A stretch of 64,000 nt of DNA from Syntrophomonas sp. (GTDB lineage: Bacteria > Bacillota > Syntrophomonadia > Syntrophomonadales > Syntrophomonadaceae). Positions 4,650-18,529 of this stretch are shown here, piece after piece. The translations under genes and the position numbers were made by a program. Positions within the stretch are counted from its first letter, which is position 1, and each line of letters begins with the position of its first letter. The stretch covers positions 1 through 64,000 of the forward strand of contig JAENZE010000009.1 in the NCBI GenBank assembly GCA_016841425.1, read 5' to 3'. The notes under the pieces were generated by a model. It did no database searches and had not been told where the DNA came from. It saw only the letters and a list, made by a program, of their open reading frames with translations.

Positions 4650-5402
4650 ATGTCATATTTTAACTATCACAATAAAAATATATTTTATCAGGAAATTGGC
4701 TCGGGAACCCCACTGATTTTCTTACACGGGAATACCGCATCTTCTAAAATGTTTGAGATGCTGCTTCCTCTGTATCAGGAAAATTTCAGGGTAATTTTAA
4801 TTGACTTTTTGGGTAATGGCCAATCAGATAGAATGGAAAATATTCCGCCAGAATTATGGTATGAAGAAGCGCTGCAAACTATAGCATTAATAGAGCATTT
4901 AGGATATGCTCAAGTGAATTTGGTCGGAACAAGCGGCGGGGCATGGGCTGCTGTCAACGCCGCTTTGGAACGCCCCGAACTCGTGAATAAGGTTGTTGCC
5001 GATAGTTTTGATGGAAGAACCCTGCATAATGGCTTCGCCGAAGACTTGCTTACCGAAAGGAATGCGGCGAAAAAAGACAGTCAAGCAAGACAATTTTATG
5101 AATGGTGCCAAGGTGCGAATTGGGAGGCAGTTGTAGATGCCGATACACGGGCTTTGCTCCAGTTTGCAACTCTAAAAAGGCCACTTTTTCATAAGCCTTT
5201 ATCTTCTTTGCAAATGCCAATTTTATTCATGGGAAGCCATGAGGATACAATGGTACGTGAAGACCTTGCGGATGAATATCGGAAAATGGCAGATATTGTA
5301 AGGTGCGGAGCTGTTCATTTATTTAATGCTGGCGGTCATCCGGCTATTTTAAGCAATGCGGAAGCAGCGGCGCAAGTCATTCAGCAATTCATTAACAGAT
5401 AA
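4650..5402 (+). CDS. Alpha/beta hydrolase
   Basis: 250 aa alpha/beta-hydrolase fold protein. The oxyanion-hole region is LIFLHGNTASSK. The nucleophile elbow is GTSGG (G-x-S-x-G) within VNLVGTSGGAWAAV. The probable acid is Asp in MGSHEDTMV and the catalytic His is in NAGGHPAIL near the C-terminus, so the Ser-Asp-His triad is complete. There is no signal peptide, so it is cytoplasmic. AGGAGG precedes ATG 4650. Substrate is unknown; the family includes esterases, lipases and lactonases. It is the only protein gene inside the interval bracketed by the tRNA-Glu 3'-end repeats and has its own terminator (5454-5489), so it may have been acquired horizontally. Confidence 0.85.
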   Translation: MSYFNYHNKNIFYQEIGSGTPLIFLHGNTASSKMFEMLLPLYQENFRVILIDFLGNGQSDRMENIPPELWYEEALQTIALIEHLGYAQVNLVGTSGGAWAAVNAALERPELVNKVVADSFDGRTLHNGFAEDLLTERNAAKKDSQARQFYEWCQGANWEAVVDADTRALLQFATLKRPLFHKPLSSLQMPILFMGSHEDTMVREDLADEYRKMADIVRCGAVHLFNAGGHPAILSNAEAAAQVIQQFINR

Positions 5403-6018: not shown

Positions 6019-6711
6019 TCAGCCCTCCTTATAATTAGCCAGGCGTATCATCATCATCCATAATAGATAAGCGGGAACATATTCCGCTAGTTTATCCTCA
6101 GAACTCCAGTTTCCCGGGTTATTAACCAATCCTTTATCAGCTAATTCTCTAAGGGCTGCCTGGCCCCCTTCAATCATCCATTTTTCTAATACCACATCAA
6201 TCACTCCATTCGCTAATTTAGTATAAAGCTCTGTCCAGGGAAATAATTCCCCCGGACAGGCAGTGGCCATCACGTCCTTATGCCCAATTACCCGTATATT
6301 CGGATATCTCTGCCAGATATTGAATACCAGCCCGATCAGGCTCTCCATCTGATCAGAGCTTGGTGAGGCAAGGGTGAAATTTCCAATTAGACAAATACCA
6401 ATACCGTCGCTATTAGCTTCATGGGTCGCATCCTGATAGGCATGTGCACCAATCGCCCACTCCGGTCGACCTCTATACACAGTCCCATCAGCATAAATCA
6501 CATAATGATAACCTATTCCAATCCAGCCGTTAGCCAGATGCCAGCTATGAATATCTTGAATGGTAGTATTATTGCCGCTCGCAGAGTGATGTATTACCAG
6601 CTTCTCAGTCTTCATCCTTACTTTGAAACTCCCCTTAAATACAAGTTCATTCTCAGATATTTTCACTTTGCCTTTTTCACCTTCTTTCAACTCAACCAAA
6701 CATGTCTGCAT
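6019..6711 (-). CDS. N-acetylmuramoyl-L-alanine amidase (amidase_2 / PGRP fold)
   Basis: Peptidoglycan amidase cleaving the MurNAc-L-Ala bond. Zinc ligands of the T7-lysozyme/PGRP fold are visible: His in LVIHHSASG, His in VIGHKDV and Cys in TACPGELFPW. GIGYHYVIYADGTVYRGRP is the typical core. The C-terminal 60 residues form an extra domain I do not recognise. There is no signal peptide, as in many phage or sporulation amidases. The start is uncertain: the frame opens at 6711, but its first codons lie in a dispersed repeat (6690-6905). An internal ATG at 6615 (MKTEKLVIHH) begins directly at the catalytic domain. The repeat forms its upstream leader. Confidence 0.85.
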   Translation of the reverse strand: MQTCLVELKEGEKGKVKISENELVFKGSFKVRMKTEKLVIHHSASGNNTTIQDIHSWHLANGWIGIGYHYVIYADGTVYRGRPEWAIGAHAYQDATHEANSDGIGICLIGNFTLASPSSDQMESLIGLVFNIWQRYPNIRVIGHKDVMATACPGELFPWTELYTKLANGVIDVVLEKWMIEGGQAALRELADKGLVNNPGNWSSEDKLAEYVPAYLLWMMMIRLANYKEG

Positions 6712-6905: not shown

Positions 6906-7100
6906 ATTTGCTTAGTTATACCATACTTGTTTTAATATCCCTTCTTATCCAATATATGCTTTGAATAATAATCAATGTGACTCTTACCTCAGAGAAATAA
7001 CCTTGATCTGGGTTATGTCCAATTTTCATAATTGAATGTTATAATGAAATAACAGGAGATCAAACGACCAGAGGGGTTTTTGTTGTGGGGGGTTAAATAT

Positions 7101-10100
7101 ATGGTTGCTCCTTTGTATATTAACTGTGACTCAAGTGCAGCCCAGGCTTCACAGTTTTTACTCCAACATCAGATAGATGGGGTTAGAGTTGTTGACGATA
7201 ATTATAAAGTAGTCGGGTTAATAAGCTGGACTCATCTTTTGAAAATAATATCGGATGGGCTATCATATGATACACCAGTACATGAAATAATGTCCCAGGA
7301 TAAAGATAGCATCAGAATAGTGGACGAATTACAATCTATGGCGGACAAGTTTATATATGAAGATGGAGATTCTAATGAGATAGAAAACCGTTCTTTGTAT
7401 AATCTAACTATGTCCTTTTTTGAAATCCTTCAGAGAAAAAAGCAGGAATGGGATATATGCCTGGATTCTATATATAATCCCCTGATTGCAGTTGATAAAG
7501 AAGAAAGAATTACCATTTTCAATAAATCTTTAGAGGAAGTATCTGGACTATCAGCCAATGAAGCCTACGGAAGGCATGTCAACGAGGTTTTTGACATGAG
7601 TGAATTAGGTAAGATACTAAAAAGCGGAAAGAAGCAGACCCTTCAAGAAATCAAATATCGGGGCAAAACTCTGTTGTCCAACCGGGCACCTATTACCGTG
7701 GATGGACAGATTGTAGGTGCAGTTGCTGTTTTGCAGGATATTTCGGAACTGCACAACGCAATTGAGGAATTAGAGCTAACCAAAAAACTTAACCAGCAGC
7801 TAGATGCAATATTTGAATCCTCCTATGATGGTCTGTATATAACCGATGGGGAGGGCAATACCCTGCGACTTAATAAAGCTTTTGAGCGTATTATGGGGGT
7901 GTATGCCGAAGAGTGCGTAGGACGTAATATGGCGGATCTGGTCGAGGAAGGATATTTTACGCGGTCAGGAACTCTACTGGTACTGGAGCGCAAACATTCG
8001 GTTACTATACCTTTACAGTCCAAGGCCGGGAAGAATGCACTGGTTACTAGCAATCCTATATTTGACGAAGATGGTAACATTGTTTTGGTGGTTACGAATG
8101 TTCGGGATTTGACTGATTTAATAGATCTCGAACAACAGTTAGAAGATGTAAAAGTCTTAAGAGAACGAGAACTCGATGCCATAGTTGAATCATCCTTTGA
8201 CGGTCTGTATATTACCGATGGGCATGGTAAAACCCTGCGGGTGAATAAAGGCTTTGAACGCATCACTGGAATCACTGCAGAGCAGATAACCGGGCGCTAT
8301 ATGGAGGACCTGGTTAAGGATGGTGTCTATTCTACTTCAGGTAGTTTGCTGGCCATAGAGAAAAGGGAAACTGTTACTGTTCAACTGAAAGCGAAGTCCC
8401 GTAAGGATATACTGGTCACCAGCACACCCATTTTTGATGACGAAGGTGAAGTGGTAATGGTAGTCACCAACGTCAGGGATATGACCGAACTGATATCACT
8501 GGAACGTAAATTGGAACGAGTAGAAGGATTGAGGCAAAAAGAACTGGATGCTATTTATAATTCTTCCTACGATGGTTTGTATATTACTGATGGAGAGGGC
8601 ACTACCTTGAGCCTCAATAAGGCTTTTGAACGAATCATGGGGGTCACCGCAGACGAATGTGTGGGACGTAATATGGCAGATCTGGTACGAGACGGGGTAT
8701 TTACCCGCTCAGGTACCCTGCTGGCAATAAAAAGCCGCGAAACAGTTACTATTCCGCTGCAATCAAAAACTGGCAAAAACGCACTGGTTACCAGTACTCC
8801 TGTTTTTGACAATACGGGAGAGATTGTTCTGGTAGTTACCAACGTACGAGACTTAACTGACCTTATCGATTTGGAACACAAACTAGAACAGGTAGAAGGG
8901 TTAAGGCAGCGGGAGCTGGGAGCTATATTTGATTCATCCTACGATGGTCTTTATATAACCGACGGTCAGGGAAATACTCTGCAATTAAACAAGGCTTTTG
9001 AACGCATCATGGGTGTCAAACCTGAAGAGTGTGTGGGGCAGAACATGGCGGACCTGGTCCGGGACGGGGTATTCACTCGCTCAGGTACTCTGCTGGCGAT
9101 AAAAACCCGTGAAACAGCTACCATTCCTCTGCAATCAAAAACAGGTAAAAACGCTCTGGTTACCAGCACACCTATTTTTGATGAAGATGGCAACATAATC
9201 CTGGTCGTTACCAACGTACGTGATATTACGGAACTGAATGACCTGCAGGGAAAAGTTGAACAACTGGAAGGCTTGAGCCGTATGTATCAGGTGCAGTTGA
9301 ATGAGCTGAAGAGCTCTAAGAGCTGTATACTGCACTCTAACAAAATGCGCAAGCTCCTTAAGATAGTTAACCATGTTTCAACTGTTGACTCCACGGTTCT
9401 TATCCTGGGGGAGTCAGGGGTAGGAAAAGAAGTAGTAGCCGATATACTTTATACCAGCAGTCCCAGGGCAAATAAACCTTTTATCAAAGTAAACTGTGGT
9501 GCAATACCCCATAATCTGCTGGAATCAGAATTGTTCGGTTATGAACCCGGGGCATTTTCAGGAGCCAGTAAAACTGGTAAGGCTGGTATGTTTGAGCTGG
9601 CAGACGGTGGTATCTTATTCCTGGATGAAATAGCTGAAATGCCCCTGGATCTACAAGTTAAGCTGTTAAGAGTCTTACAGAATAACAGGATAATGAGAAT
9701 TGGAGGAACCAAAGAGATTGAAGTTGATGTAAGGATTATTACGGGCACCAACCGAAATCTTCAAAACATGGTAGCAGAAAACCTATTTCGGAAGGACCTT
9801 TACTATCGGCTTAATGTAGTACCTATCTTCGTTCCGCCTCTGCGTGAACGCCGAGAAGATATACCAGTCTTGACCAGGCATTTCCTGGAAGTGTTTAACC
9901 GTCGCCATAAGATGAATAAACGTCTTTCCGCTGACGTTCTAAAATACTTTGTCTCTTATGACTGGCCAGGAAATGTAAGAGAACTAGAAAATCTTATAGA
10001 AAGACTGGTAGTTACTACCCAGTCTGACATCATAGGAATGGAAGATTTATCTTCCTGGGCAGAACTAGAAGCTGCATCTCAACCAAAAACGGAAATCATA

Positions 10101-10256
10101 CCACTTCATATGGCCCTGGAGAATACCGAACGAAATTTGCTGGAGGAAGCCTTTTCGATATATAATTCCACCTATGCAGTTGCCCGGGTTCTGGGAGTAA
10201 GCCAGCCTACTGTAGTACGCAAGGCCGCTAAGTATGGTATTGCTAAGCAGAAATAG
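7101..10256 (+). CDS. Sigma-54-dependent transcriptional activator with CBS-like and five PAS domains
   Basis: About 1051 aa enhancer-binding protein. In order: a CBS-like segment (residues 1-65, [18 protein letters not shown]), a divergent PAS (about 120-230), four near-identical PAS modules with a 124-residue period (about 234-735), and an AAA+ domain. The AAA+ domain has Walker A GESGVGKE (about 769), the sigma-54 contact loop GAFSGA (about 816), Walker [10 protein letters not shown] (about 838) and the arginine-finger region [12 protein letters not shown] Fis-type helix-turn-helix ([18 protein letters not shown]) ends the protein. ATG 7101 follows a G-run at good spacing; TTG 7080 is also open. 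Neighbouring genes and the sigma-54 promoter at 17824 suggest control of the beta-oxidation operon, which is inference. The PAS signal is unknown. Confidence 0.92.
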
Positions 10257-10346: not shown

Positions 10347-11690
10347 TTATCTCATTTTATTAACTTTCCGCCAGATGTTCATTTTTTCTGCTTCCTTAAT
10401 CAATTCGTCTCTGAAATCAGGATGGGCGATGTTGATCAATTCTTCCGCTCTTTGCCAGGTGCTCTTCCCTTTCATACTGGCTATCCCGTATTCAGTAACC
10501 AGCATATGGGTAGCAGTTCTGGGGTCGGTAACTATCGCCCCTGGACTTAGTATAGGCTGAATCCTGGACTTAACTACACCTTTGCTTTCAATGGTGGAGG
10601 GCAGACATACAAAACTCTGGCCGCCTTTGGATTTATATGCACCTTCCACAAAATCCAGTTGTCCGCCGGTACCGCTGATATGCCTGGTGCCTACGCTCTC
10701 TGAACATACCTGTCCAAACAAGTCTACTTCAATACAAGCGTTTATGGATACAAAATTGTCAATCTGAGCAACCACAAAGGGATTATTGGTATAATCAACC
10801 GAATATGAAGCTAAACCTGGATTGTCGTCTATATAATCATATAGGTCCTGGCTGCCCATGGCGAAAGAATAAACCTGTTTATACTTGTCGATGTTTTTAC
10901 AGGCACCCGTTATTTTACCGGCTTTTACCATTTCCAGATATGCATCAACGTACATTTCAGTATGAACACCCAGATTCTTTAAATCAGAATTAGCAACCAT
11001 AGTTCCCACCGCATTGGGAGTGCCTCCGATACCCAGCTGTATACAGTTGCCGTCATATAAGCGTCCGATAATGAATTCGGCTATCTTGGTTTCAACCTCA
11101 GAAGGCTTAGATGATCCCAATACCATTATCGGCTCATTTCTGCTTTCCATAATATAATCTACCTGGGTAACATGCACACATTCCTGATTTCCTCCCAGAC
11201 ATCTGGGCATCTTGCTGTTAACTTCCAGTATGGTTATTTCAGCCGTCTCCATCATTGCCCAATTGTTAACAGCACTTCCGCCAAAGTTGAAATACCCATG
11301 TTTATCCATAGAGGTAACTTGAATAACTGCCACGTTGTCAGGTGTACAGTCTTTTCTGGTCATCATAGGATTTTCGTGGAATTTCATGGGAATATAATAC
11401 AGATTTTTCCCAATAAATTTCTTATCATGACCTGCTATATGCCAGCTGTTCCAGGTGAAATGTTCCCCGCTGGGATCGGCTTCAGCGGTAAAATGCTGAT
11501 AAGCACCGATATCGCATTTTATATTTACATCGTATAATTCATCTTTTCTTTTAGCTAGAGCTTCATCAAAATCTCGTGCACAATTTATACCAAAGCCATA
11601 TTCTACCCAGTCGCCTGATTTTACTAATTTAGCTGCTTCATCAGCAGTAACCAATTTGCTTTTATATTCATCTAACCATCTCTGATACAC
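10347..11690 (-). CDS. Acyl-CoA:acetate / 4-hydroxybutyrate-type CoA-transferase
   Basis: 447 aa family I CoA-transferase of the acetyl-CoA hydrolase/transferase group. Landmarks are the N-terminal AAKLVKSGDWVEYGFG, the central IQLGIGGTPNAVG, GVHTEM with the probable catalytic Glu, and the C-terminal GGQLDFVEGAYKSKGG and TEYGIASMKGKS motifs. It likely moves CoA between acetate/acetyl-CoA and butyrate or a similar acid, activating the substrate. The frame opens at ATG 11708, but the ribosome site GGAGGAGG lies inside that extension. GTG 11690, eight bases after it, is the better start and matches the paralogue's N-terminus. It is last in the beta-oxidation operon. Confidence 0.88.
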   Translation of the reverse strand: MYQRWLDEYKSKLVTADEAAKLVKSGDWVEYGFGINCARDFDEALAKRKDELYDVNIKCDIGAYQHFTAEADPSGEHFTWNSWHIAGHDKKFIGKNLYYIPMKFHENPMMTRKDCTPDNVAVIQVTSMDKHGYFNFGGSAVNNWAMMETAEITILEVNSKMPRCLGGNQECVHVTQVDYIMESRNEPIMVLGSSKPSEVETKIAEFIIGRLYDGNCIQLGIGGTPNAVGTMVANSDLKNLGVHTEMYVDAYLEMVKAGKITGACKNIDKYKQVYSFAMGSQDLYDYIDDNPGLASYSVDYTNNPFVVAQIDNFVSINACIEVDLFGQVCSESVGTRHISGTGGQLDFVEGAYKSKGGQSFVCLPSTIESKGVVKSRIQPILSPGAIVTDPRTATHMLVTEYGIASMKGKSTWQRAEELINIAHPDFRDELIKEAEKMNIWRKVNKMR

Positions 11691-11767
11691 GTAAATTTCC
11701 TCCTCCATATTAATTATTTCAAATAAAGCACTACCTTTAATAATTAATCTGATATTATGGAGAACTC

Positions 11768-12412
11768 TTATACAGCCCTATTAGCAGATGTAGTCTTATG
11801 GATATATAGATGATATTTACCTGTTTTCTTAAAACCTTGTAAAAGATCATCATTATTACTACCCACAATCATATCTGCCTGAGATATATGAATACATTCC
11901 TGCCCTGGCACCCTGCCTTCGAGAATACGCTCATTTATCTCTAGAATCACGTACTCTGCCATCTCATAATAGTTCTGAAAAACCCGGTTTTCTGCAACGT
12001 TGCGGCCAAACCAGAAATACCCATTTTTATCCATGGGACTTACTGTAGCCATAAAAACATGACCAGGTCGCACATCATGGTCCGAACTGTTCTTATCTGT
12101 ACGCCTGCCAGCCTTTTTGGTTCCTCCTTCACGCATAGAACTTTCCATGGTTCCTGGACATATCCCCTCGTAAAACTTAAAATGTTCTCCAGAAAAGTCA
12201 GCATCCATAGCATAATACCCACAGGTGATATCATTGCAGATGATTTTGACATCGTTAAGTTCATCTTTTCGTTTGGCCAGTGCCCGATCAAGTTCATTTA
12301 TGCTGCATATCCCAAAGGCATATATCACACGGTTACCAGATTTTATTACTTTTACTGCTTCTTCTGCAAAAGTAAATTTCCGGGCATATTCATCTGTATA
12401 TTTCAAGCTCAT
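11768..12412 (-). pseudogene. Truncated CoA-transferase (N-terminal domain only)
   Basis: 214 aa. About residues 1-190 parallel the N-terminal half of the adjacent CoA-transferase: EEAVKVIKSGNRVIYAFG, the ALAKRKDELNDVKI block, SPMDKNGYFWFG and GQECIHISQADMIV. The protein then stops after an unrelated tail. The C-terminal catalytic half with the GVHTEM glutamate and the GGQLDF motif is absent. The ribosome site (GGAGG) and start look intact, so a fragment could still be made. Most simply it is a duplicated and deleted copy of the downstream gene. Confidence 0.75.
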
Positions 12413-12591: not shown

Positions 12592-14424
12592 TTACATGAA
12601 CGACTCCTCGGCAATTTCAATAGCACTCTTGTCGGCAGCCTTCATGGACTTCTCGAATCCGAAGACATCGGTAACGTGGTTCATTATATAGAATTTGGCA
12701 CTGGCAATTTTGCCCTTGTAGAAGTAGGCATCGAAGTGGTCGTCGCCCAGTTCTGCCAGTTTCTTGGCTGCTAAAATGGCCTGGTCGAGTAACAGCTTGC
12801 CGCAGTAGACTCTAGCGCCTGCATGCATGGTGCGAGTAGAGTAGAACTGTTTCATTTGCTTATCACCGGCCGTCCAGGCGGCATTCATCTCAACAATGCT
12901 TTTGAATGAAGTCATGGCATCAGCCATCATGGCAAATTCAGCTGCGAATTCGTCAGTCTTCTGACCGGCGACGAAGTCGTCGATTTCTGCCACCCATTTC
13001 TTGAACGGTGCGCCGTCCTTCATGGTGAACTTGCGACCGGTATAGTCTTGTGACTGAATGAAGTTGGTGCCTTCCCAGATGCCGTGGATCACGCAGTCCC
13101 TATATAGGGAGGCCGGGGCATACTCTTCCATGAAGCCGTAGCCACCGTGGCATTGGATCGCTTCCCCGGTGAGAATCCTGGCCATATCGGATGAATAGGC
13201 CTTGCACAGCGGGTTATTAATCGCAAACATGTCATCATAATATGCTCTCTCTTCCGGTGTAGCTGCATCTACGGCCAGGTCGCGGTAGAGATAGGATTGG
13301 TATATCAAAGCCCGTATGGCTTCCATGCCTGATTTCTGGTACAGCAGCATGCGGCGTACGTCTTCGTGTTCAATGATTCTGACGCTGGGGCCCTTCGGAT
13401 CAGTCGATTTTTTGCTCTGTACGCGTACTTTGGTGTAATCCAGAGCTGCGTAGTATGCAGAAGTTATGCAGCCCAGGGTGAATAAACCGGTGTTCAGACG
13501 TTCTTCATTCATATACGCGAACATCTGTGACATCCCTTTACCACGGCCATCTACCACTTCTTTTTCGCCTACCATCCATCCGTAGCATTCGTTGTTTTCA
13601 CCCATGGCCAGGGTAAGGGTGGAAGAACCGTGGATACCCATTTTGTGTTCAATTCCTACAGAGGTTACATCGTTCCATTTACCCATGGAGCCATCCTCGT
13701 TGACCCAGAACTTGGGCACGATGAACAGCGAGATGCCGGCGGTGCCTTCTTTGGCGCCCGGGGTCTTGGCCAACATCAGGTGGATAATGTTTTCCGCCAG
13801 GTCATGGTCGCCGGATGTGATAAAGCATTTCTGGCCTTTGAGTTTATACAGGTGGGGGGTGTCGGTGGGGGTTGCCTTGCTGGCAACCGCTCCGACCTCG
13901 GATCCTGCGCCCGGTTCGGTCAGACCCATGGTGCCGCCCCATTCACCGGTGTACATCTTGGGAAGGAACATGTCCTGTTGTCTTTGTGTGCCAAATTCCT
14001 GGAGCACGGTGGTAGCACCCTGGGTCAGACACCAGAACATCACTATAGCCGCGGATGCAGCAGACTGCATTTCCAGAATTGGTGCATACCAGGCCAGCGG
14101 TATTTTTCCGTCGCCGCGGAAACCAAACTGGGGTCCTAACTCGGCTTCACAAATGGTTTTGTAGACAGCTTTGAAAGACTCGGGAGTTACGACTGCATGC
14201 TCATCGCCGCCCACAAACGTCGCACCGATTTCATCGGCATCTTTGTTAGCCGGACACATAACGTCGCGGCAGATCTTGAAGTTAACATCGAGGAAATTAT
14301 CTATGTCATCGATTCCATAGTATTCTTTGTAAGCATCCAGGGACAAAAGCTTGTCCATGGGGAGCCATTCTTTTATCACGAACTTAATGTCACGGGTATT
14401 CATTTGAAAATTATTATGTGGCAT
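12592..14424 (-). CDS. Acyl-CoA dehydrogenase, large (~610 aa) type
   Basis: FAD enzyme that oxidises acyl-CoA to trans-2-enoyl-CoA, here probably butyryl-CoA to crotonyl-CoA. The FAD/substrate core includes GTMGLTEPGAGSEVG, KCFITSGDHD, CHGGYGFMEEY and IHGIWEGTNFIQS, where WEGTN carries the expected catalytic glutamate. At 610 aa it is much longer than ordinary 380-aa dehydrogenases; the extra N- and C-terminal parts match the subgroup that includes DmdC and other large enzymes. AGGAGGAG precedes ATG 14424. It follows the thiolase gene in the operon. Its electrons probably pass to ETF, but no etf genes lie in this window. Confidence 0.93.
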   Translation of the reverse strand: MPHNNFQMNTRDIKFVIKEWLPMDKLLSLDAYKEYYGIDDIDNFLDVNFKICRDVMCPANKDADEIGATFVGGDEHAVVTPESFKAVYKTICEAELGPQFGFRGDGKIPLAWYAPILEMQSAASAAIVMFWCLTQGATTVLQEFGTQRQQDMFLPKMYTGEWGGTMGLTEPGAGSEVGAVASKATPTDTPHLYKLKGQKCFITSGDHDLAENIIHLMLAKTPGAKEGTAGISLFIVPKFWVNEDGSMGKWNDVTSVGIEHKMGIHGSSTLTLAMGENNECYGWMVGEKEVVDGRGKGMSQMFAYMNEERLNTGLFTLGCITSAYYAALDYTKVRVQSKKSTDPKGPSVRIIEHEDVRRMLLYQKSGMEAIRALIYQSYLYRDLAVDAATPEERAYYDDMFAINNPLCKAYSSDMARILTGEAIQCHGGYGFMEEYAPASLYRDCVIHGIWEGTNFIQSQDYTGRKFTMKDGAPFKKWVAEIDDFVAGQKTDEFAAEFAMMADAMTSFKSIVEMNAAWTAGDKQMKQFYSTRTMHAGARVYCGKLLLDQAILAAKKLAELGDDHFDAYFYKGKIASAKFYIMNHVTDVFGFEKSMKAADKSAIEIAEESFM

Positions 14425-14582: not shown

Positions 14583-15773
14583 TTAGAGCATTTCAAATAT
14601 GGTGGTGGTTCCCATGCCGCCGCCTATACAGAGTGTGGCCAGCCCGGTTTTGGCATTGCGTTTTTGCATCTCATATAGCAGTGTAACCATTATCCTGGCT
14701 CCAGAAGACCCAATCGGATGACCCAGGGCGATAGCTCCGCCGTTTACATTTACTTTTTCCATCTTGTCAGCCCATCCGCAGTCCCGGGCTACAGCCAGTG
14801 ACTGGGCAGCAAATGCCTCGTTGGCTTCTATTAGATCGATATCGTCTACGGTCATACCTGCTTTTTCAAGCGCTTTTTTGGTGGCTGGTACCGGGCCAAC
14901 ACCCATAATTGAAGGATCTACTCCACCGGAGGCGTAGCTTACTATCTTTGCCATCGGTTTGATTCCCAGTTCATCAGCTTTTTCTTTGGACATTACGATC
15001 ATGGCAGCTGCACCATCGTTTATTCCGGAAGCACTTCCTGCAGTAACGGTTCCGCCCTTTTTGAAGGCGGTGCCCAGGGTAGCCATTTTTTCCCGGGTAG
15101 TCATCCTGGGATGCTCGTCAGTATCAAATACTGTGTCACCCTTTTTACCTTTAATTACTACCGGCACGATCTCATCTTTAAATCTGCCTGAGGCAATGGC
15201 TTCTGCAGCTCTAACCTGGCTCAAGTAGCCAAAGTCATCTTGTTCTTCCCGGGTTAAGCCCCACTGTTCTGCCACATTCTCGGCAGTCATACCCATATGA
15301 TATCCATTGAAGATTTCCCATAATCCGTCATAAACCATGCCGTCTATGAGATCACCTTTTACCATGTTCATCCTATATCCCCACCGGGCATTGGGCAGGT
15401 AATAGGGATGAGCGCTCATGTTTTCCATACCGCCAGCCAGCACTATATCTGCATCCCCGGCTTTAATGACCTGGGCTGCCAGATGTACCGCTTTCATACC
15501 TGATCCGCAAACTTTGTTGATGGTGAAAGCTGGTATTTCAATAGGGATTCCAGCATGTATCATGGACTGCCGGGCTACGTTTTGTCCCTGTCCTGCCTGT
15601 AAGACACAGCCGAAGATTACCTCTTCAACCTGTTCGGGTTTAATTCCAGCCCTTTTGATGGACTCTTCCATTACGATTCTGCCTAATTCTACGGCCTTAA
15701 CATCTTTTAACGCACCCCCGAAGGTTCCTAATGCGGTACGACATACTCCTGCTACTACTATTTCTTTTGACAT
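14583..15773 (-). CDS. Acetyl-CoA C-acetyltransferase (thiolase)
   Basis: 396 aa thiolase. In this setting it would cleave acetoacetyl-CoA with CoA to two acetyl-CoA. The acyl-enzyme Cys is in [12 protein letters not shown] (about residue 89), the His in [10 protein letters not shown] and the second Cys in LCIGGGMG near the C-terminus, so all active-site motifs are present. Length equals typical AtoB/ThlA. It is the third gene of the operon, about 30 bp after hbd. Confidence 0.95.
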
Positions 15774-15802: not shown

Positions 15803-16648
15803 CTATTTACGATAATCAAAGAATCCTTCACCAGTCTTGCGTCCCAGCTTATTGGCCCGGACCATCTTGACCAGCAGCGGGCAAGGACGATACTTGGGAT
15901 CGCCGAACTCTTTGTATAGAGTTTCCATAATCTTAAGGCAGATATCCAAACCGATCATATCGGCCAGGGCCAGCGGTCCCATGGGATGGCCAGCGCCAAA
16001 CTTCATGGAAGTATCAATATCAGCAGCATTGGCTACCCCTTCCATTAATGCATACATACCTTCATTGAGCATGGGAATCAATAGACGGTTAACAACAAAG
16101 CCGGGGGCTTCGTTGATTTCCACCGGAGCCTTACCCATCTTTTCAGAAAGGTCTTTAATGGCATCGAAAGTTTCCTGGCTGGTGTTAGCTCCCCGGATGA
16201 TTTCTACCAGTTTCATGGCTGGTACCGGGTTGAAGAAGTGCATGCCGATCACCTTGTCTGCTCTGCCAGTAGCGGCGGCGATTTCGGTGACGCTCAAAGC
16301 CGAGGTGTTGCTGGCTAAAATGCAGCTGGGTTTACAGATAGTATCCAACTCTTTGAAAATAGTTTTCTTAATCTCCATGACTTCCAGAGCAGCTTCAATA
16401 ACCAGATCGCAGTCTGCCGCAGCAGCCATATCAACTGTCCCGGAAATCCTGCCCATAACCGCAGCTTTATCTTCGGCAGTCATTTTGCCTTTATCAACAT
16501 TCTTACCCAGGATCTTATTGATTCCCGTAATCCCTTTATCAACAAATTCCTGTTTAATATCGCGTACTATAACCTCGAAGCCGGCTTGTGCAGCGGTCTG
16601 AACAATGCCTGCTCCCATAGTACCTGCTCCTAGTACCATTATCTTCAT
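15803..16648 (-). CDS. hbd: 3-hydroxybutyryl-CoA dehydrogenase
   Basis: 281 aa NAD(P)-dependent dehydrogenase that oxidises 3-hydroxybutyryl-CoA to acetoacetyl-CoA. The Rossmann motif GAGTMGAGI begins at residue 6. [12 protein letters not shown], the [13 protein letters not shown] segment with the catalytic His, and [15 protein letters not shown] are classic. The open frame runs back to 16726, but GGGAGG lies 7 nt before ATG 16648, which starts MKIMVLGAG at the usual place. With that start it no longer overlaps crt. Length matches clostridial Hbd (282 aa). Confidence 0.96.
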
Positions 16649-16691
16649 ATAATTACCTCCCATAATTTTATCCAACACAGCAGTTTTCAGT

Positions 16692-17474
16692 CTATTTACC
16701 GGTAAAGTCGGCTTTACGCTTTTCAATAAAAGCAGTCATTCCTTCCCTCTGGTCAGCCGTAGCAAAACAAAGACCAAATGCATCTGCCTCTATAGTCATG
16801 CCTCTATTAATATCGGTCTGCAAACCTTCATTGGCGGCGGCTTTGCAAAGTCTTATGGCTGCCTGACCCTTGCTTAGGATTCTACCTGCAGTTGCCTTCA
16901 CAACATCCATCAATTCTTCGGGCGTTTGTACTGAATTAACCAGACCTATACGAAGAGCTTCGTCAGCACCTATGACGTCAGCAGTGTAAAGCAACTGCTT
17001 GGCCATACCGGCCCCAATCAAACGGGTAAGACGCTGGGTGCCGCCAAAACCTGGTATAATGCCCAGGCCTACTTCAGGTTGTCCGAATTTAGCTTTCACA
17101 GAGGCGATCCGAAAATCACAGCACATTGCTAATTCACATCCGCCTCCGAGAGCAAAACCGTTAACGGCTGCAATAACTGGTTTTTCCATAGTCTCAATCA
17201 TCATGAATACCTGCTGACCAAGAGCTGCAAAAGCACGAGCTTCCATAGCGGGCAGATTCTGCATATAAGCTATATCTGCACCAGCTACAAAGGCCTTGTC
17301 TCCTGCACCTGTTATGATTAGCAGATCTATATCATCATCTTGAGCAATACTGGTTATAGCATCTTTCAGCTCCAGGAGTGTTTCCTTGTTGAGCGCATTA
17401 AGCGCTTTGGGTCTGTTAATGTACAATGTTGCTATTCTATCTTCCTTTTCCAGCAACAAGTTTTCGTAGGTCAT
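16692..17474 (-). CDS. crt: 3-hydroxybutyryl-CoA dehydratase / enoyl-CoA hydratase (crotonase)
   Basis: 260 aa crotonase hydrating crotonyl-CoA to 3-hydroxybutyryl-CoA. The CoA pocket has [11 protein letters not shown], the oxyanion loop has [12 protein letters not shown] with the first catalytic Glu, and [16 protein letters not shown] holds the second Glu. Both catalytic glutamates are therefore present, unlike the paralogue at 50032. It is the first gene of the beta-oxidation operon, with a G-rich ribosome site just before ATG 17474. Its long 5' leader reaches back to a sigma-54 promoter at 17824. Confidence 0.95.
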
Positions 17475-17684: not shown

Positions 17685-17823
17685 GAGGGGGTCTACTGTT
17701 GTATAGCGAATAAAAGGGTATGAGTGGTAAAGGGGTACAACCGCTATATAACAGTAGATAATATGAGAAAATGTGTTAATGGGATTATGATATATTTATG
17801 TTGCGTATCTGGCATACTAAGTA

Positions 17824-17838
17824 GCAATAAACGTGCCA
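17824..17838 (-). promoter_or_regulatory. Sigma-54 (-24/-12) promoter upstream of the beta-oxidation operon
   Basis: Minus-strand sequence TGGCACGTTTATTGC matches the RpoN consensus TGGCAC-N5-TTGC at every conserved position. It is oriented towards crt, about 350 bp upstream, with the predicted start near 17812. A sigma-54 activator gene lies just beyond the operon's far end. Confidence 0.75.
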
Positions 17839-17927
17839 TCAAGTCAAATTTTATTTTTATTTATTTAAATGCAAGGTATTATGGGGCATGGATACATTCA
17901 CTCATTAATAGAAAACAGAGGCCGGAG

Positions 17928-17959
17928 CACAAAACAATTCAATATTGAATTGTTTTGTG
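17928..17959. promoter_or_regulatory. Perfect 32-bp palindrome, candidate enhancer (UAS)
   Basis: The half-site CACAAAACAATTCAAT is followed directly by its exact reverse complement. It lies about 115-150 bp upstream of the predicted sigma-54 start site, the usual distance for an enhancer-binding protein. A partial half-site (ATTGAATTATTC) occurs near 18064. The rest of 17960-18215 shows nothing else clear. Confidence 0.65.
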
Positions 17960-18215
17960 ATTCATTATTGTATTATGGCGGAATTTCTCTAATGTTTAGA
18001 AATTAATAATACCTGCACCTGCACATTACAGAAGGTTTTGCCAGTGTCAATTAATGATGCATTATTGAATTATTCTTTTCATTTTGTTAGTTTTTATCCA
18101 TTTATTTGTCAGATACTGGCATTTATTTGTTAAAACATAGGTAATTTGTCAATACTATGGAGTAAATTAACTTTACGATTTATGGACTACAAGTTAGAAT
18201 ATTGAGGTGAAAATA

Positions 18216-18293
18216 ATGATTAATTTTACAGCCGCCTGGAAAGCGGTTGTATTTTTGGAAAGACAGGAGGGAAACATATGCGAACGCTGGTAG
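18216..18293 (+). CDS. Small upstream ORF (25 aa), possible leader
   Basis: ATG 18216 has GAGGTG at good spacing and opens a 25-codon frame ending at TAG 18293. It overlaps the start of the next gene (ATG 18278), a layout seen in translational coupling. A stem ACAGCCGC/GCGGTTGT followed by TTTTT lies inside it. The peptide is not recognised, so it may be chance. Confidence 0.3.
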   Translation: MINFTAAWKAVVFLERQEGNICERW

Positions 18294-18529
18294 CAACTAT
18301 GCTGGCGAATTCAAAGGGTAAAAATGTTTTTTGTTCGGCAAATAAAATCAATGAACAGCAAATGAGGATTATCCGCAATACTGATTGGTCAGAGCTTGAA
18401 GAAGTGGGGTTTACCTTTATAAATTTGGCCTCTCCCGAGTACCCTAACATAAGAGGAAAGGCCATATTTTTTGAGGGCCATATAGATGAAATGGGTCGTG
18501 CACTAAAAAATATTGATAAGAGTTTTTAA
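18278..18529 (+). CDS. Small conserved-looking protein of unknown function
   Basis: 83 aa soluble protein. ATG 18278 is preceded by a strong AGGAGG at correct spacing and a 12-bp-stem terminator follows the stop, so the gene unit looks real. I do not recognise a domain. It has a cysteine in VFCSANK, acidic WSELEEVGF and a GKAIFFEGH segment, with no signal peptide or membrane segment. It lies alone, convergent with tyrS and divergent from the beta-oxidation operon. Confidence 0.65.
   Translation: MRTLVATMLANSKGKNVFCSANKINEQQMRIIRNTDWSELEEVGFTFINLASPEYPNIRGKAIFFEGHIDEMGRALKNIDKSF

Follow-up and report, generated by a model that had tools for sequence, protein, structure and literature searches.

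The butyrate-oxidation operon of the Syntrophomonas genome studied here (the host genome) is very probably governed by a control switch in which a sigma-54 activator, encoded adjacent to the operon, acts on two tandem dyads and a sigma-54 promoter. The view that the dyads represent an enhancer read by this activator is supported by the conservation of promoter and dyads, the convergent orientation of the activator gene, the covariation between recognition helix and half-site, and a forecast for a paralogue that was met. All support is comparative, and many of the relatives compared are metagenome-assembled genomes. The term window refers to the whole stretch of 64,000 nt that was analyzed.

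Promoter and tandem dyads upstream of crt

The exact RpoN site aimed at crt that had been proposed for the minus strand was recovered at 17838..17823 (TGGCACGTTTATTGCT, matching the pattern TGGCAC-N5-TTGC), and a pattern search over all 64,000 nt returned it as the sole exact RpoN site in the window. Within the 3.58-Mb genome, TGGCAC-N5-TTGCW was found 20 times (reversed pattern: 2) and TGGCAT-N5-TTGCW 46 times (reversed pattern: 0), i.e., 66 exact TGGCAY-N5-TTGCW sites versus 2 in total. Since forward matches far exceed reversed-pattern matches, an exact site in this genome is rarely due to chance. Furthermore, TGGCAY-N5-TTGC with at most one mismatch is kept in 20/20 orthologous promoters, located 257–431 bp ahead of the first gene in all 20 promoter regions compared. 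The -12 element implies a predicted transcript start at approximately 17812, which is supported by an ultraconserved leader block beginning at this very position.

A perfect 32-bp palindrome (CACAAAACAATTCAATATTGAATTGTTTTGTG, 17928-17959, strand-neutral, 16+16 without a loop) had been expected about 115–150 bp upstream of the start, and was identified approximately 116–147 bp upstream of the implied one. It is present as a single copy in the genome, even with three mismatches permitted, which rules out the objection that it represents an abundant repeat. The genome search suggested for its half-site yielded no other match with at most one mismatch, and three other matches at two mismatches, a number below the reversed control. 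The idea that the palindrome is the enhancer held in part: its core dyad is conserved, but the conserved unit consists of two dyads 23 bp apart and not of the palindrome, whose outer arms are not kept. The center of the palindrome corresponds to the proximal dyad, and the second dyad starts at its edge, suggesting that the palindrome is the most conspicuous form of one enhancer half.

The proximal dyad (UAS dyad 2, CAATTCA-ATAT-TGAATTG, 17935..17952, minus strand) was delimited by promoter comparison and by a leave-group-out matrix, and UAS dyad 1 (TAATACA-ATAA-TGAATCA, 17958..17975, minus strand) lies 23 bp from it. A distal dyad (TAATTCA-ATAA-TGCATCA, 18055..18072, minus strand) has equivalents at the corresponding position within the genus. 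The 18-bp consensus reads TRATKCA-N4-TGMATYA, and the tandem pair was detected in 19 of the 20 promoter regions, approximately 100–147 bp before the promoter, the remaining region (G032) being partly masked with a single dyad visible. Spacing within the pair is mostly 23 bp, with 22 bp in two regions and 19 bp in a genus resembling S. wolfei. A direct repeat of TGAATCA had earlier been considered the conserved element, but gave way to the tandem dyads after more genera had been compared.

Dyad phases and the positions of the pairs were initially chosen by eye; the leave-group-out test, in which the matrix was built without the group under test, still allowed failure. Tandem dyads were recovered in 19/19 testable promoters, each scoring above all 200 dinucleotide shuffles, and the host promoter reached 34.3 versus at most 9.4 for 49 other sigma-54 promoters tested in the genome. 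A pattern combining half-sites and sigma-54 site had 26 matches across 63 genomes of the order and none when reversed. Most of these matches precede crt, hbd, thl or CoA-transferase genes, and three of them (G042, G046a, and G021b) feature poor dyads and appear chance-like. For the dyad-pair pattern with two mismatches, a search of the host genome returned the true site and scattered matches taken for chance, the reversed pattern being an unfair control in this case.

The outer seven pairs of the palindrome display more symmetry than shuffled flanks (p=0.002), and these arms are private to the host genome, not being kept in the nearest relatives even within the genus. Comparable private extensions with different sequences were found in G018, G048, and G053, and are absent in most lineages. 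This recurrence in a few lineages is what a functionless template-switch correction of an imperfect dyad might leave behind, an interpretation compatible with the enhancer and given about even chances, as the outer symmetry could instead be selected for binding strength. The same symmetry beyond the dyad, together with the fact that operators are typically long perfect palindromes, might also mean that an unrelated regulator, for example a repressor of the TetR/FadR type, uses the palindrome as its operator, with the activator using other sites. Such an operator is improbable, considering that the tandem dyads are conserved while the outer arms are not, that dyad spacing and distance to the sigma-54 site are conserved, that the half-site tracks the recognition helix of the activator (see below), and that tandem dyads are absent from the other sigma-54 promoters tested in the genome. 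The least probable explanation is that the palindrome plays no regulatory role and represents a terminator, a mobile repeat or a structural accident: a consensus scan gave a weak plus-strand terminator-like site and the perfection of the palindrome is private to one genome, but the single-copy sequence is AT-rich with a poor T tail and thus a poor terminator, no plus-strand gene ends there, and relatives across the family keep its core at a constant distance from the sigma-54 site.

The adjacent activator and its recognition helix

As originally noted, the only sigma-54 activator (bEBP) in the window is encoded just beyond the distal end of the operon (7080..10256, plus strand); no further PF00158 protein was found on the 164-kb contig. 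Pfam analysis of the 1058-aa protein revealed an N-terminal CBS domain, approximately five PAS domains, the AAA+ domain Sigma54_activat (PF00158, 230.9 bits) and a Fis-type HTH domain (C-terminal HTH_50); scanning the N-terminus by itself brought the CBS domain over the Pfam cut-off in three orthologs. The activator was traced across 54 genomes of the family, and its neighborhoods were compared. In every relative whose contig reaches far enough, the activator gene converges with the operon or its remnant. In genus g4 (L126, L128, L129, and L149), the dyads, sigma-54 site, leader hairpin and activator are kept, the operon being reduced to the CoA transferase. The host genome encodes one rpoN gene and 34 strong activator genes, and 37 of the 66 sigma-54 sites are located at most 5 kb from an activator gene, compared to 6.2 expected.

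Comparison of recognition helices with half-sites revealed that SQP/SQA pairs with GAAT in 16/16 promoters and NQS/DQS with GCAT in 11/11 promoters, the third base being C in 44/44 half-sites of the latter. In the tree, the SQ form represents one clade (SH-aLRT 99) within an NQS grade, indicating a single switch; the covariation therefore amounts to one event plus the paralogue test. This test concerned a host paralogue with the helix NQST (contig C25), for which GCAT sites were forecast beforehand. The forecast was met: the sigma-54 promoter of the adjacent operon carries CAATGCGTTTTCGCATTA and TAATGCCTTTTCGCATTA, 23 bp apart, a result that supports binding by the neighboring activator.

With 34 activators in one genome and similar HTH domains among paralogues, the sigma-54 site might be used while the dyads serve another activator, the neighboring gene being a passenger. 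This possibility was rated marginally below that of an unrelated operator, given that the linkage was observed in every relative with enough contig, that among the host activators whose helix was read SQPT occurs only in the operon-adjacent one, and that its closest paralogue (NQST) has GCAT sites of its own. Most likely, the neighboring PAS/CBS activator reads the enhancer and turns on the butyrate-oxidation genes. Its dimers would bind the two 18-bp dyads, which are 23 bp (about two helical turns) apart, with centers located approximately 132 and 155 bp ahead of the start. The assembled activator would then loop to the RNA polymerase-sigma54 at TGGCAC-N5-TTGC and open it using ATP, thus activating a transcript that would run from near 17812 through the conserved structured leader into crt.

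The suggestion that a PAS-sensing activator switches fatty-acid oxidation gained comparative support, but needs to be extended by the N-terminal CBS domain and restricted in its reach, since other beta-oxidation operons have their own sigma-54 promoters and the activator probably switches only its own operon. From its PAS and CBS domains, redox, energy or acyl-CoA state is a plausible signal.

The structured leader RNA

The ultraconserved 5' leader (approximately 127 nt, 17685..17810, minus strand) starts at the predicted sigma-54 start. Over columns 30–160 of the genus alignment, it is 92–98% identical, compared to 36–72% at fourfold-degenerate sites of crt. It contains a hairpin, P1, composed of UCUACUGUUAUAUAGCG...CGCUAUACAACAGUAGA followed by CCCCCUCUUUUUUU (17692..17758, minus strand), with a covarying stem that was found family-wide; in the long stem, 17758-17741 is paired with 17709-17692. 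Stems were located at a similar place in about two dozen relatives, in most of them approximately 50–60 nt from the start. Among 13 diverse sequences, 9/14 pairs have changed on both sides; these counts were taken from alignment A3, alignment A4 being left out because of antisense duplicates. The covariation score was 0.522, whereas shuffles gave 0.217 and slid partners no more than 0.165, a comparison biased towards structure as the stems were picked by pairing.

A covariance model recovered more copies beyond its building set; almost all of these follow a sigma-54-like site and precede beta-oxidation genes. Applied to 398 genomes of the phylum, it matched Syntrophomonadaceae only, plus one marginal match, and Rfam returned no match for the leader at the gathering score. 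The hairpin is absent from the operon of the NQST paralogue in the host genome. Following the stem, CCCCCUC can pair with the G-rich crt ribosome site AGAGGGGG in all five genus members. Translational masking, attenuation, mRNA stabilization and action as a small RNA are all candidate roles of the leader.

On balance, we lean slightly towards a broader interpretation, namely a conserved Syntrophomonadaceae cassette in which the activator, tandem dyads and sigma-54 promoter are joined by a new leader-RNA family (a long CUACUG...CAGUAG stem, then C-/U-tracts). The cassette would run butyrate oxidation, the RNA adding a second level of control either in cis or as a small RNA dependent on sigma-54. 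As part of this interpretation, a duplication would have been followed by recoding of the half-site (GCAT to GAAT), thus insulating two paralogous beta-oxidation operons. The two circuits may be kept apart in one cell by their GAAT/GCAT half-sites, and the recoding would provide a compact example of duplicated regulators becoming insulated.

The operon, known systems and other beta-oxidation loci

Syntrophic butyrate oxidation, a bottleneck in methane formation, proceeds near thermodynamic equilibrium. The literature search found no regulator assigned to it. A candidate regulator, its DNA sites, the helix residues apparently setting these sites and a leader RNA can now be named, enabling in vitro tests without syntroph genetics.

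The operon extends on the minus strand from 17474 down to 10347 in the order crt-hbd-thl-bcd-orf214-CoA transferase. Its first gene, crt (enoyl-CoA hydratase, 16692..17474), was assigned by Pfam, and is followed by hbd (3-hydroxyacyl-CoA dehydrogenase, 15803..16726; Pfam and tblastn), the true start of which is probably about 20 codons further in according to the ortholog alignment. The thiolase gene thl (14583..15773) and the acyl-CoA (butyryl-CoA) dehydrogenase gene bcd (12592..14424) were likewise assigned by Pfam, the dehydrogenase sharing 94% identity with its counterpart in Syntrophomonas sp. B5_bin.5. Located next is orf214 (11768..12412), encoding a 214-aa protein with a CoA-transferase N-terminal domain fragment (PF02550, partial), which the genus and genus g12 have retained but which was not seen in many other relatives. 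The last gene (10347..11708) encodes an acyl-CoA/acetate CoA-transferase (Pfam AcetylCoA_hyd). A conserved small gene of 83 aa (18278-18529, plus strand), located between the operon and tyrS and divergent from the former, is 52–92% identical in relatives and has no significant Pfam match.

Enzymes and their order are the same in the Swol_1932-1936 cluster of Syntrophomonas wolfei, which encodes abundant butyrate-oxidation enzymes and represents a main butyrate pathway of this organism (PMC3582634). Proteomic studies conflict on the regulation of this matching operon: the pathway enzymes were called constitutive (PMC3582634), whereas Swol_1935 and Swol_1936 were among the proteins detected solely in coculture with a methanogen partner (PMC4324140). 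No promoter or activator assignment for Swol_1932-1936 was found in these two publications. Genome G037 is probably S. wolfei, as judged from its position and gene order, and all four elements are present in it: the activator, the dyads, the sigma-54 site and the leader hairpin.

Classical bEBP enhancers (NtrC, NifA, FhlA, XylR/DmpR) are composed of dyad sites, often paired, 100–200 bp upstream of a -24/-12 promoter. The arrangement described here likewise features paired dyads upstream of such a promoter, but differs in its GAAT/GCAT core half-sites and in the CBS and multi-PAS sensor, FhlA and NifA having a TGT/ACA motif (PMC6615313). The principle itself is already known from the CrbR scheme in Clostridium, in which a sigma-54 promoter and multiple upstream activator sites also precede a crt operon and the activator also features a Fis-type HTH. 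However, CrbR was predicted for butyrate synthesis, as opposed to butyrate oxidation here, and its motif was described as TGT-N10-12-ACA, in contrast to the GAAT/GCAT dyads; this motif had no match in the 19 UAS regions, and Syntrophomonas was not found in the main text of the CrbR study. As far as the literature searched shows, the family-wide case in syntrophic butyrate oxidizers, the GAAT/GCAT dyads, the helix recoding and the leader RNA are new.

A search for RpoN sites before other fatty-acid genes, as had been recommended, detected several further sigma-54 sites preceding thiolase, hydroxyacyl-CoA dehydrogenase, hydratase and CoA-transferase-like genes, these gene types being judged by eye from translated starts. 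At locus L230 (G000:C7, sigma-54 site at 6380), a 45-bp inverted repeat (AAGAACCGCAATATTGCAGCATAATGCTGCAATATTGCGGTTCTT), apparently comprising two GCAATATTGC dyads 21 bp apart, precedes a hydratase operon, which has an activator of its own (helix IDPST) encoded just upstream. At locus L231 (G000:C4, sigma-54 site at 5337), a perfect 24-bp palindrome (GTTTTTGGCGTTAACGCCAAAAAC), a candidate activator site, is located before a hydroxyacyl-CoA dehydrogenase operon.
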